Below are positions 7,898-13,419 of a DNA stretch of 64,000 nucleotides, piece after piece. The stretch is from Bacteroidales bacterium. GTDB taxonomy: Bacteria > Bacteroidota > Bacteroidia > Bacteroidales > G3-4614. The notes under the pieces are model-generated. The model was not told the DNA's origin and searched no databases. It saw only the letters and a list, made by a program, of their open reading frames with translations. The number at the start of each line of letters is the position of its first letter. The stretch's first letter is position 1. Where the stretch lies: contig JAFXDI010000001.1 of NCBI GenBank assembly GCA_017521245.1, positions 99,178-163,177 on the forward strand, read 5' to 3'. Both the position numbers and the translations under genes were made by a program.

Positions 7898-9022
7898 ATG
7901 AGCGAAAATATTGAAAACACAAAAGAAAATAAGAAAGATGATTCATTGGATTTAATGAAATACATAAAACAACTTCTTCCATATAAAAAACAGATAATAA
8001 GGTTAAGTTGTGTAGTATTTGTTTTATCCGTTGTGATTGCTCTATTTATCCCAAAACAATATACAGTAACTATGACATTGGCACCTGAAGCAGGACAAAA
8101 TGGAGAAGGAATGTTGTCGGGAGTAGCGTCAATGTTTGGTATTGGAGGTATGGGTATGGGAGAGAATGCAGATGCTTTAACAGCTCAACTATATCCCGAT
8201 ATAGTTGCATCAACTCCATTCTTAGTAGATATGCTTGATACTCGAGTAAAAACAGCAAACGGAAAGATAGATACAACATTAGATGTGTATATCTTAAAGC
8301 ACTATATAACGCTATTCCATAAAATAAAGGGTTTTCCTAAACGTGTAAAAGGGATGATAACAAAACTATGGAAAGAACCCGTTGTTATAGGAGAAGGAAG
8401 TAGTTCAAATTACCTATCAGAGATAGATAACGCAAAAGTTTTGATACTTAGGCAGTTATTTGAGGTTGTAGTTGATAAAAAAACAAGCGTTACAACTATA
8501 ATGGTTACTCTTAATGATCCTATGGTAACAGCTATGGTAGCAGATGCTTTAGTAGAAAAACTACAAGCTAAAATTACTGAGTATCGTGTGGCTAAATCCG
8601 TTGATGATTGTGAGTATTGGGAACAAATATATACAGAAAGTAAAGAAGACTACTTTTCAAAACAAGATGAATATGCTCGTTATGTAGATGCAAATAAAAA
8701 TCTTGTAAAGCAGAGCGTTATAGCGGAACAAGAGCGTTTGTCTAACGAAGCAATATTGGCATATCAAATATATAGCAATGTTGCAACTCAATTACAAGTT
8801 GCTCGAGCAAAAGTGCAAGAAGCAAAACCAGCATTTGCAGTAGTTCAGCCTTCAACATTGCCATACGAACAATCAGGAACAGGAAAAACAACAATTGTCT
8901 TAGTACTCACATTTTTAGGTGTTGCAGCAATAATAGCATGGTATCTATTTGGAAAAGATTTTTTGATAAAAGCAAAAAATAAATATAAAGAATTTATAAA
9001 CAAGACAAAGGAATTCAATTAA
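7898..9022 (+). CDS. wzz: Chain-length determinant protein (Wzz family)
   Basis: A 374-residue inner-membrane protein with the layout of Wzz/PCP co-polymerases. It has a short cytoplasmic start and a first transmembrane helix at about residues 38-53 (LSCVVFVLSVVIALFIP). A large periplasmic part follows, with coiled-coil stretches (DYFSKQDEYARYVDANKNLV, then VATQLQVARAKVQEAKPAFAV), the PSTLPYEQSGTGK motif, and a second helix at about 330-350. It sets the length of the polymer made by Wzy. There is no carboxy-terminal tyrosine kinase, so it is the PCP-1-like form. It is first in the locus and is followed by two terminator-like hairpins before wzy. Confidence 0.9.
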   Translation: MSENIENTKENKKDDSLDLMKYIKQLLPYKKQIIRLSCVVFVLSVVIALFIPKQYTVTMTLAPEAGQNGEGMLSGVASMFGIGGMGMGENADALTAQLYPDIVASTPFLVDMLDTRVKTANGKIDTTLDVYILKHYITLFHKIKGFPKRVKGMITKLWKEPVVIGEGSSSNYLSEIDNAKVLILRQLFEVVVDKKTSVTTIMVTLNDPMVTAMVADALVEKLQAKITEYRVAKSVDDCEYWEQIYTESKEDYFSKQDEYARYVDANKNLVKQSVIAEQERLSNEAILAYQIYSNVATQLQVARAKVQEAKPAFAVVQPSTLPYEQSGTGKTTIVLVLTFLGVAAIIAWYLFGKDFLIKAKNKYKEFINKTKEFN

Positions 9023-9035
9023 ATCAACTATTAAG

Positions 9036-9080
9036 AAATAAGAATAGAGAGAGGCTCTCTCTATTCTTATTTAAATTTTT
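9036..9080 (+). terminator. Strong hairpin with T-run after wzz
   Basis: An 18-base-pair perfect stem (9036-9053 with 9055-9072) around a single central base (the tip must open in RNA), then a run of T at 9074-9081. It starts 13 bases after the wzz stop and looks like a strong intrinsic terminator, although the locus continues in the same direction. Confidence 0.8.
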
Positions 9081-9125: not shown

Positions 9126-9154
9126 GTTAACCTTTTAAAAGGTTAACATTTTTT
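9126..9154 (+). terminator. Second hairpin with T-run just before wzy (possible attenuator)
   Basis: A 22-base perfect palindrome (9126-9147, GTTAACCTT arm and AAGGTTAAC arm) is followed at once by ATTTTTTT. It lies about 20 bases before the wzy ATG. No TAnnTTTG box is seen between the two hairpins and wzy, so wzy seems to depend on read-through. Confidence 0.7.
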
Positions 9155-9167
9155 TGAAAAGAGGATT

Positions 9168-10514
9168 ATGTTTATATTTCTGTTGTTAGCACTCTGGTGG
9201 TTTAAGAAAGGAAAAAAAGAGTTATCTATTATTACCTTTTTTGGATTCCTAACAGGAGGCTTTCAACTAATACCAGATGCCGTATTTGCATTCCCTGTCT
9301 CAATAAAACCAACTGATTATGCAATACTCTATCTTTTAGGAGTAATAGCAATGGAGTATTTTTCAGGTAAACGAAAAGAACTCATTGATGTACTCCCTAA
9401 ATTTACTCTCATATTTCTCTCATTCATTGTATTAGCAGCAGGAGTAAGTATTTTTATATATCATATTCCTATTGTAGAGGTTATAAAGAATACAAGGCAA
9501 TATTTTCTTCTATTATCTCCAATACTCTTTTATACACTCTCAAAAGAAGAACTACAAAACGTAGTAAAATTTCTTTTTAAAATAACTCTCTTTTTGAGCA
9601 TTCTTTACTCTTTGCAACCTATGTTGGATATGCCTATATTACAAGGCCATTATACTGAGGGAAAAACACCCCTCTTTGGAATGTTTGAAATAGCACGCTT
9701 TTATAATACACCAATATATCATAACTTTTTCTTCTTATTCGCTTTATATAATTCAGAGTTTACAAAAAAACAGAAATTAGTATATCTCTCAATATTGGTA
9801 TTGCCAATATTTTTGTGTATGCACAGAAGTTTATTATTGGCATTTATATTGGTTGTCCTTTATAATCATTTTAGAGAAAAAATAAAAAAGATATATCCTA
9901 TTCTTATTGTGATATTTGTTGCATTAATACCTTTCTTAGGAGTAATACAAGGTAATCTCCTTGAGACAAAAATTGCACAAGATATTATTGGCTCTGTTGA
10001 GATAGAACCCGAAGATTTTGTAGCAGGAACATTAGATGATGCTACATTTACTTTTAGAGTATTACACTTTTTGGAACGGCTCTATTATGCATCAGAAGAT
10101 TGGATAACATTACTATTTGGGTTGGGATTTATGTCGGAGGGTTCTGACTATACAATTAATAATTTTGACTTTATAGTAGGGCTTGAGAATGAGGAGACGG
10201 GTTTTGTTGATCAGGTGAATACTGCTGATATAGCATGGTCTCTATTTGTAATACGTCTTGGTTTAATAGGAACTATTGTATATTTAATTTACTATTTCTT
10301 ATTGATGAGGTTTTTTAATAAGAGATATAATAAACCCATCGCAAAATCAATATTTTTAGCAATGTGTCTAATATTTATATTAACATTTACAGGAGTAAGA
10401 ATATTAGATATGGAAACAATAACTTTTATTTTATTAGTCTATGTCTTGTTGCAAAAGAATGAAATAAATGTAAATAATGAAGAAGATAACCTATTGTCAA
10501 AAGAGAATAATTAA
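9168..10514 (+). CDS. wzy: O-antigen/exopolysaccharide polymerase (Wzy-like)
   Basis: A 448-residue, very hydrophobic protein with about ten to twelve predicted membrane spans and one longer outside loop (about residues 270-345, rich in Asp/Glu and aromatic residues). This is the usual form of Wzy, which joins lipid-linked repeat units on the periplasmic side. Wzy proteins share little sequence, so the call rests on topology and on the place between Wzz and Wzx. The carboxy third (from about residue 288) has a close partner in the chimeric frame just downstream. The ATG at 9168 follows a reasonable AGAGG stretch. Confidence 0.82.
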   Translation: MFIFLLLALWWFKKGKKELSIITFFGFLTGGFQLIPDAVFAFPVSIKPTDYAILYLLGVIAMEYFSGKRKELIDVLPKFTLIFLSFIVLAAGVSIFIYHIPIVEVIKNTRQYFLLLSPILFYTLSKEELQNVVKFLFKITLFLSILYSLQPMLDMPILQGHYTEGKTPLFGMFEIARFYNTPIYHNFFFLFALYNSEFTKKQKLVYLSILVLPIFLCMHRSLLLAFILVVLYNHFREKIKKIYPILIVIFVALIPFLGVIQGNLLETKIAQDIIGSVEIEPEDFVAGTLDDATFTFRVLHFLERLYYASEDWITLLFGLGFMSEGSDYTINNFDFIVGLENEETGFVDQVNTADIAWSLFVIRLGLIGTIVYLIYYFLLMRFFNKRYNKPIAKSIFLAMCLIFILTFTGVRILDMETITFILLVYVLLQKNEINVNNEEDNLLSKENN

Positions 10515-10540
10515 ACAAAGTATAATACTAAAAGAATTCA

Positions 10541-11092
10541 ATGTATTATAATTACAATTTGAATATGACGCTCTATCCTTATAGTGTTGAGGAGATATTA
10601 AAACTATATAAACAACACCCTGATGGAGCAACCTTTACATTTAGGATTTTACACTTTTTAGAGCGTCTATATTACGCATCTGACGAGTGGATAACTTTAC
10701 TATTCGGTTTAGGATTTATGTCTGAAGGCTCTGATTATACAATGAATAACTTCGATTTTATTGTGGGTATTGAAAATGAGGAAACAGGTTTTGTAAATCA
10801 GGTTGATACATCAGATATTGCATGGTCTCTATTTGTAATACGATTTGGGATAGTAGGAACAATACTATACCTGATCTATTATTTTACCATAGTAAACTTC
10901 TTTAATAAAAAATATAAATCTGATACACTTGCAAAGGTTGTATTCTCTGTATTGGGCGTAATATTTATAACCTCATTTACAAGCGTACAAATATTAAGCA
11001 TGGAGTTTATATCGCTGATATTACTTGTCTATATTTTACTAAAGAAGCAGGAGATAGAAAATACTGCAAATAAGGAATATTTAAATAGTTAA
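10541..11092 (+). pseudogene. Chimeric remnant: glycosyltransferase fragment joined to a Wzy carboxy end
   Basis: A 183-codon frame built from two pieces. Codons about 11-30 (LYPYSVEEILKLYKQHPDGA) repeat an inner piece of the glycosyltransferase at 12634. Over 61 bases (10571-10631 against 12919-12979) I count two differences. From codon about 31 it switches to a copy of the Wzy carboxy end (TFTFRILHFLERLYYAS onward), similar to codons from about 290 of the gene at 9168 but clearly diverged. Neither piece has a catalytic core. The junction falls where both parents share a GATGxxGCxAC-like stretch, suggesting short-homology recombination. It may still be translated as a membrane peptide, but I regard it as a relic of locus reshuffling. 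Confidence 0.85.
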
Positions 11093-11097
11093 TATAT

Positions 11098-12627
11098 ATG
11101 ACACAAAAAAGTCTATTGATAAAAAATTCAACAATTGGTATACTTAAGATTGTGGCAGTAGCCATATTAACCTTTTTGTGTGTACCAATATATATTGATC
11201 ACTTAGGAGTTGAGTCTTATGGGGTTTTTGCTCTTGTCTCAATACTTGGAAATTTGAACGTCTTCTCTTCATTTGGTTTAAATAGTGCGTTGTTGGTATT
11301 TCTCTCAAAACAAGGAAAAACAGAGGAATCACAACGCGATATTGTTGTAGTTCTATTCTCAACAATAGTGATAGCAATATTACTTTGCTCTTTACTATAT
11401 ATCTTTAAAACACCCATAATAGAGAATATATTTGGTGTGCCTCAAGAGTTTGTATATTCATCAAGTTGTTTATATGATTATCTGTTGTTGGCTAATCTTT
11501 TATTGATTGTGGGGCAGGTTGCTGTATCAATAATAGATGCATTGCAAAAAATATATATATCAAATATAATACAATTTATATATAATTTAATATATTGGAT
11601 AGGTCTTATAGTAGTGGTTATTAGTGGAGGTACTTTAGCTGAAGTTGGAATACCTCTATTCTTATCTGCCTTAGTATGGTTTATCCTAATATTTTGGAAA
11701 GCACGCTCATTGTGGGGAAGTTTTAAATTGACACAACCCATACGTCCTCACTTAAAAAGAGCCTTTCTAAAACAATTCTCATACGGGGCAAAAATATTTA
11801 CAGCAGGTTTTTGCAGTTTCTTTTTAGAACCACTATCAAAAATATTGGTGTCAAAATTTGTTGGAATAGATTTAGTTGCGTTCTACGATATAGCACTCCG
11901 TATAAAACATCAAGTAGCAGGATTGTTCCAAAAAGCTACATATCCGCTCTTTCCCTATATATCAGAACAACACAAATCTCCTCAATTAAACGAGAAGATT
12001 GCAGATATGAGTAAAAAAATACAGCTGTTGGTTACCTCTCTCGCTATGGTTATCCTATTTACATTTCCTGTTTTAGTAAAACTTTGGTTGGGAGAAGATT
12101 ATACAACAACAACTCTGATATATATATTGGCAATAACTATATCATATATTCTTTTTTCACCAACTATTATACCTATATACTACTATTTACAATCAAAAAA
12201 TATGGCAGATAGGAATATATATATGCACTTAGGAGGGGTAGTTTTAAATATATTGGTATTCTTTATGTTATATAAAATTACAGGAGAATATGCTATTATT
12301 ATTTCAAATACGGCATCTGTCTTATTTGGATATTTGTTAGGTCTTTATTATATGAAAAAGTATAATGATTTAAAAGTTGTATCACTATTAAAATATTATA
12401 TAACAATACTTTTATGGGTTGTAATTTCCGGAGGTATCTGTTATGTGTTAAAATGCTATATTGTGCCGGAAACTATTTTTGATGTACTGCTCTATCCTTT
12501 GGTAATAATATTAATTTTAGTTATCTTTACCAAAACAGGATATTTGATAAATAAATCAGATATAGAGAGATATTTGGGAACAATGCCCAAAGTAAGAAAT
12601 ATTGCAACAAAACTTTTAATAAAATAA
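11098..12627 (+). CDS. wzx: Polysaccharide repeat-unit flippase (Wzx, MOP superfamily)
   Basis: A 509-residue protein with about 14 membrane spans and the family's opening pattern: a short basic amino end, then GILKIVAVAILTFLCVPIYIDHLGVESYGVFALV, shared with RfbX/PST transporters. Central KRAFLKQFSYGAKIFTAGF resembles the start of the second half-repeat. It flips undecaprenyl-linked repeat units across the inner membrane for Wzy. It starts 5 bases after the chimeric frame stops and ends 6 bases before the next glycosyltransferase, so it belongs to the same transcript. Confidence 0.92.
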   Translation: MTQKSLLIKNSTIGILKIVAVAILTFLCVPIYIDHLGVESYGVFALVSILGNLNVFSSFGLNSALLVFLSKQGKTEESQRDIVVVLFSTIVIAILLCSLLYIFKTPIIENIFGVPQEFVYSSSCLYDYLLLANLLLIVGQVAVSIIDALQKIYISNIIQFIYNLIYWIGLIVVVISGGTLAEVGIPLFLSALVWFILIFWKARSLWGSFKLTQPIRPHLKRAFLKQFSYGAKIFTAGFCSFFLEPLSKILVSKFVGIDLVAFYDIALRIKHQVAGLFQKATYPLFPYISEQHKSPQLNEKIADMSKKIQLLVTSLAMVILFTFPVLVKLWLGEDYTTTTLIYILAITISYILFSPTIIPIYYYLQSKNMADRNIYMHLGGVVLNILVFFMLYKITGEYAIIISNTASVLFGYLLGLYYMKKYNDLKVVSLLKYYITILLWVVISGGICYVLKCYIVPETIFDVLLYPLVIILILVIFTKTGYLINKSDIERYLGTMPKVRNIATKLLIK

Positions 12628-12633
12628 AGAGAT

Positions 12634-13419
12634 ATGGAAAAAGAGGACGTATTGGTAACCATTGTAACTCCCTCATATAATCAAGGACAATTTATAGAGG
12701 ATACAATTAAGAGTGTACTTAACCAAACCTATAAAAACATACAATATATAGTTGTTGATGGAGCATCAACCGATAATACAATGGAGGTTGTTGAGCGTTA
12801 CCGCGATAAGATTGATATTATAATAAGTGAAAAAGATAAAGGACAAACCGATGCTATAAATAAAGGATTTAAGTTAGCAAAAGGGGAATTGGTGGGTTGG
12901 ATAAATTCTGATGATATGCTCTATCCTTATTGTGTTGAGGAGATAGTAAAACTATATAAACAACACCCTGATGGAGCAATATTTTATGGTTCAAGAATAG
13001 AAATGATTGATTCTAAAAATAATCATATAAGATTTTGGGATAACCATATAAAAAACAGGAAAAGACTCCTAACAGAAAATTATGATGTTTCACAGCAGGG
13101 ATCATTCTATAAGAGAGATATAGTTCATAAAGTGAATTATTTGGATGAGAGCATCTATTATTGTATGGATTTAGATTTGTTTCTTAAATTATTAAAATTT
13201 GGAGATATATACTCTATTGATGATAAACCTTTGGCTCAATTCAGGCTATGGGAAGAGGCTAAGACTGCAACAGGTAAAATAAAATTTATTAAAAATATTC
13301 GTGAGAGATTATATCTTTATGACGCAAAAATTTATAATAAATCAATACTTACCACATACTATTGGCAGATACGATTCATATTAACAGATATTATAAAAGC
13401 AATTCTTAGAATAAAATAG
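12634..13419 (+). CDS. Glycosyltransferase family 2
   Basis: A 261-residue GT-A fold enzyme. The nucleotide-sugar site is shown by VTIVTPSYNQGQFIEDTIKS at the start, then VVDGASTDNTMEVVERY, and the metal-binding Asp-Asp in GWINSDDMLYP (around residue 93). It adds one sugar to the growing lipid-linked repeat in the cytoplasm; the donor is not predictable. Near the carboxy end a Trp/Lys-rich tail may touch the membrane. An inner piece of this gene (12919-12979) is nearly identical to part of the chimeric frame at 10541. Confidence 0.93.
   Translation: MEKEDVLVTIVTPSYNQGQFIEDTIKSVLNQTYKNIQYIVVDGASTDNTMEVVERYRDKIDIIISEKDKGQTDAINKGFKLAKGELVGWINSDDMLYPYCVEEIVKLYKQHPDGAIFYGSRIEMIDSKNNHIRFWDNHIKNRKRLLTENYDVSQQGSFYKRDIVHKVNYLDESIYYCMDLDLFLKLLKFGDIYSIDDKPLAQFRLWEEAKTATGKIKFIKNIRERLYLYDAKIYNKSILTTYYWQIRFILTDIIKAILRIK

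Follow-up and report, generated by a model that had tools for sequence, protein, structure and literature searches.

Directly upstream of the wzx flippase gene in this gut Bacteroidales locus lies an open frame (10541-11092) that combines pieces of two different genes, and we asked how it came about and whether its product is likely to do anything. The original prediction had described it as a glycosyltransferase fragment fused to a Wzy tail, and that description held: the frame has 183 codons, is open throughout, and joins a GT2 piece and a wzy piece in frame. We think it likely that recombination in a capsule or exopolysaccharide locus of the Wzx/Wzy type left the frame behind as a scar, and we found no evidence that this remnant has a function. 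All coordinates refer to the window, by which we mean the whole 64-kb stretch of DNA that was analysed, and all features lie on its forward strand.

The order wzz-wzy-wzx-GT2 in the window begins with a gene for a Wzz-like chain-length regulator (7898-9022; Pfam Wzz PF02706, E 1e-4, narrowly missing the curated cut-off). It continues with an intact wzy (9168-10514), the fused frame, wzx (11098-12627; Pfam Polysacc_synt PF01943, E 5.5e-15) and the GT2 glycosyltransferase gene (12634-13419; Pfam Glycos_transf_2 PF00535, E 6.7e-32). For comparison we searched seven congeners, which are metagenome-assembled Bacteroidales, including Candidatus Caccoplasma merdipullorum, taken at one genome per species. 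Two of them, RGIG9119 and RGIG7307, carry the order wzz-wzy-wzx-GT2-GT4 with a single wzy that stops 5 bases before wzx; in the window it is the tail of the fused frame that holds this site. At the amino acid level the Wzz-like protein is 75% identical to that of RGIG9119 and 68% to that of RGIG7307, and the flippase is 87% identical to that of RGIG9119. In two more distant congeners (L014 and L015), wzy overlaps the start of wzx by 4 bases (ATGA).

The region upstream of the intact wzy has features of its own. Codons ~100-200 of wzz are 52-66% identical to those of both close congeners, compared with 86-90% between the congeners, which suggests that the middle of wzz is another recombined stretch in the locus. 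Directly 3' of wzz, a strong 17-pair terminator-like hairpin with a T run occupies 9036-9072, and wzy may therefore be the start of a separate transcript with its own leader. A palindrome, GTTAACCTT(N2-4)AAGGTTAAC, lies at 9126-9147 and is followed in the window by a T run. It occurs exactly once per genome in five of eight congeneric genomes (the window's own, and L040, L042, L043 and L044 at 1501), between wzz and wzy in three and shortly upstream of wzz in two, and the reversed control gave none. The palindrome may be part of a leader or an attenuator for the polysaccharide operon.

Assignment of the intact gene at 9168 came mainly from structure and context. Its product had no Pfam match, the NCBIfam model TIGR04370 (E 0.5) fell below cut-off, and a profile search of solved structures by sequence returned no credible relative; one of six homologues matched Wzy_C at 1.4e-4. 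The AlphaFold model (mean pLDDT 75.7) is that of a polytopic membrane protein with the Wzy/WaaL fold, and its best match is the O-antigen ligase WaaL (PDB 7tpg, chain B; Z 17.4, rmsd 5.9, 370 residues), followed by RodA/FtsW at 9-11. Sequence identity to WaaL is only 11%, and in the fused frame the fold is reduced to its C-terminal part. The gene adjoins wzx, wzz and glycosyltransferase genes, and its place after wzz and a conserved leader is the one seen in the relatives. Taken together, the modelled fold, the wzx, GT2 and GT4 genes and the weak Wzz match are most naturally read as a Wzy polymerase, which we infer to be the working one.

The fused frame itself fits neither parent family. Its first ten codons fall within a spacer (10515-10569) that runs from the wzy stop to the GT2-derived patch, its codons 11-30 are the patch, and the remainder is wzy. 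About 20 GT2 codons are present, with no Pfam GT2 domain, and the Wzy portion begins only at codon ~291 of ~445, so that the protein of 183 amino acids lacks the full complement of 10-14 or so membrane helices. No significant match was found in Pfam or NCBIfam. The structure model is of low confidence (pLDDT 66) and, of the long helices in the Wzy model, shows just the final three; those helices and the conserved loop ATFTFRxLHFxER..FGLGFMSEGS are what the frame keeps.

In the patch, bases 10570-10631 match GT2 bases 12918-12979 at 60 of 62 positions (59 of 61 if counted as 10571-10631 against 12919-12979). The two differences announced in the original prediction are thus present in the base-level alignment, which was also run against wzy, and the shared origin with GT2 stands. 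Among ungapped 61-base direct repeats at all offsets of at least 100 bases in the window, the patch ranks first; the runner-up is a 52/61 match within the wzy pair, followed by 43/61. Genome-wide, the GT2 gene itself was the sole other match. The source lies 2.3 kb downstream of the junction. Only one of the three frames of the patch is open, and this is the GT2 frame, the same one that is fused to wzy. Both differences (at 10583 and 10598) are nonsynonymous and unique to the patch, as the GT2 genes of RGIG9119 and RGIG7307 carry the resident GT2 state. With two changes in 61-62 bases, the divergence has a 95% interval of 0.4-11%, and exact identity extends over at most 33 bases.

Two other sources for the patch were considered and rejected. 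A diversity-generating retroelement does not fit, because the two changes relative to GT2 (T to A, G to T) do not lie at template adenines. A distant donor with the wzy-GT2 order of other families (L030, L031) does not fit either, because the patch is nearer to the resident GT2, from which it differs at 2 bases, as against 10 for the GT2 of RGIG9119 and 7 for that of RGIG7307.

The right part of the frame, from about 10632 to 11092, consists of the last ~154 codons of a wzy. As predicted, it resembles the gene at 9168 from codon ~290: the two are about 73% identical in nucleotides (query 82-492) and 68% in amino acids, and an ungapped block of 263 nt (10035-10297 in the intact gene, 10622-10884 in the second copy) reaches 79%. 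The tail is closer to the genes of the relatives, at 83% protein identity to the wzy tail of RGIG9119 and 75% to that of RGIG7307. At each of 39 informative positions it has the ingroup and never the outgroup state, and from codon ~351 on it groups with RGIG9119 (bootstrap 77). Because it ends 5 bases before wzx, as wzy does in the relatives, and because of its 83% identity to the RGIG9119 protein, we take the tail to be the remnant of a resident-type wzy in its normal place, the allele of the right-hand arm. It is a truncated homologue at the orthologous position, where the relatives have intact single-copy orthologues.

The two pieces of the frame differ in age, as had been proposed. Between the tail and the intact wzy, pS is 0.73-0.74 and pN 0.20, a combination that points to an old split between genes under constraint and not to a recent duplication; the two alleles parted long ago. 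Because the patch differs from its source at 2 bases, as against ~74% of synonymous sites between the two wzy alleles, the joining of the alleles came long after their split. Such a late joining excludes a duplication made at the scar.

The intact wzy may be mosaic as well. Up to codon ~290 it groups with RGIG9119 (bootstrap 69-74), codons 291-350 have no clear placement (bootstrap 60), and over the final ~100 codons it falls outside a group of RGIG9119, RGIG7307 and the tail (bootstrap 72). States common to the distant congeners make up 5 of 23-24 after the break and 3 of 65-66 before it (Fisher p about 0.03, with the break chosen post hoc). Codons 1 to ~345 are RGIG9119-like, whereas codons ~346-448 probably derive from a deeper lineage, and a second, older mosaic junction inside the gene is likely, though not firmly shown, since a 3' end that evolves faster would give a similar picture.

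How, then, might the scar have formed? The left and right arms each lie in their own normal context, and the join falls after the stop of one wzy and within codon ~291 of the other. We propose that a left arm, comprising wzz, the complete wzy at 9168 and ~55 further bases, was linked to a right arm at points that do not correspond. The right arm would start at codon ~291 of a different wzy allele, one that was old by then, and continue through wzx and GT2 onward. A broken or incoming end would first have copied GT2 and then jumped to wzy where a few bases matched. In an alignment of GT2, the tail and the wzy of both relatives, the right-hand junction zone is GGAGCAA (10625-10631), which is likely a microhomology between GT2 and the wzy tail. 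Template switching during end repair would be the most likely mechanism. The tail would no longer be functional, and the frame would be open either because little time has passed since the scar formed or because ribosomes that translate it are still delivered to wzx. The recombination envisaged in the original prediction therefore survives in outline, namely two diverged wzy alleles, an illegitimate junction at very short homology with its copy of GT2 sequence, and a truncated wzy left behind. The tail as a stray incoming piece does not, given that it occupies the relatives' wzy position before wzx and is closest to the wzy of RGIG9119. Either arm could be the newcomer, and the serotype switch first suggested may have accompanied the exchange.

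Several observations sit uneasily with a scar. The whole 183-codon frame is open across an in-frame join; the 62-base patch requires two junctions; and for the spacer at 10515-10569 we found no second copy in its own genome, the window or the relatives, where local matches were no better than those of random 58-mers. Additionally, decay of the tail is not visible, because its dN/dS against RGIG9119 is 0.10 and its branch has no excess of amino acid changes (11 nonsynonymous and 22 synonymous changes, vs 9 and 16). The open frame, the low dN/dS in the history of the tail and the retention of the loop and helices would also fit a functional small membrane protein that modulates or binds Wzy or Wzz, or completes a polymerase in trans. 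We nevertheless consider such a protein, which the original prediction had offered as its alternative, unlikely and without support beyond the open frame. Neither the seven congeners nor a sample of 393 genomes of the order contained the frame, no fused protein appeared in a first scan of a genome-contig collection, and viral contigs did not contain the exact fusion junction. Both changes in the patch alter amino acids, and the model is of low confidence. Openness is itself weak evidence of function, because under neutrality at 3% divergence the probability of no premature stop is still ~0.4. The more specific idea that a translated half-Wzy works in trans with the intact Wzy, changing for example chain length or linkage, seems to us very improbable; if true, the allele swap would have left the cell with a hybrid polymerase. 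That the frame stays open because translation of wzx depends on its being translated, whatever the peptide does, is improbable too, but less far-fetched. The close wzy-wzx spacing in both near relatives and in the window tail, together with the ATGA overlap in the distant congeners, means that translation of the tail may still help that of wzx. Such coupling is deduced from spacing of a kind common in operons, and it would add to the scar reading without replacing it.

The remaining alternatives concern the origin of the second wzy piece. Two copies side by side in the same orientation are what a tandem duplication within the genome followed by partial deletion would leave, yet some three quarters of the synonymous sites in the shared segment are different, as much as between species, and the tail and the 3' part of the intact gene are placed differently in the tree. 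We regard this history as very unlikely, and a recent tandem duplication was rejected on synonymous divergence (pS 0.73). A chimeric assembly of two metagenome strains might be suspected, as the congeners are metagenome assemblies and the genome of the window is in 54 contigs. However, the exact identity available for a false join (at most the 33 bases shared by patch and GT2, and about 7 at the right junction) is too short for a graph error at usual k-mers, and the site lies within a 383-kb contig, so that we consider an artefact highly improbable.

A scar of this type would have company. In the excerpted account of the Streptococcus pneumoniae serotype 33G (33X) cps locus, a truncated ancestral wzy lies beside an acquired, apparently working wzy homologue, and a small orf with partial similarity to two neighbouring cps genes is read as a recombination remnant (PMC10782959). 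The window likewise has a truncated wzy remnant beside a different wzy, and an orf fused from two genes. Serotype 33G differs in belonging to a Firmicute pathogen with a known capsule structure and many isolates, whereas the window comes from an uncultured Bacteroidales genus, and the short glycosyltransferase-derived patch at the wzy junction is a feature of the window that the excerpted 33G account does not describe (PMC10782959).

Within the order, the loci of Bacteroides nordii (L038) and Bacteroides sp. UBA7333 (L037) resemble the window in encoding an export/Wzz-like protein, wzx, wzy, GT2 and GT4. In the other Bacteroidales families compared (L030, L031, L037, L038) wzx precedes wzy, whereas in the genus of the window wzy precedes wzx. 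In those four loci a glycosyltransferase or acetyltransferase gene lies directly 3' of wzy. No second wzy piece was found in the Bacteroidales Wzx/Wzy loci examined, L037 and L038 included.

Remnants of a replaced wzy in mosaic capsule loci have thus already been described, 33G being one case (PMC10782959). New here is an example from an uncultured genus of Bacteroidales, whose one unusual detail is the short templated patch. The whole case is most likely ordinary capsule-locus mosaicism and not a new protein. A single scar by itself changes little; it adds one base-level record of wzy allele exchange in this genus, in which the join is not at matching allele positions and brings with it a short stretch copied from a gene 2.3 kb distant. 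Should patches of this sort turn up again, they could be used as footprints in a search of capsule loci for illegitimate allele exchange.
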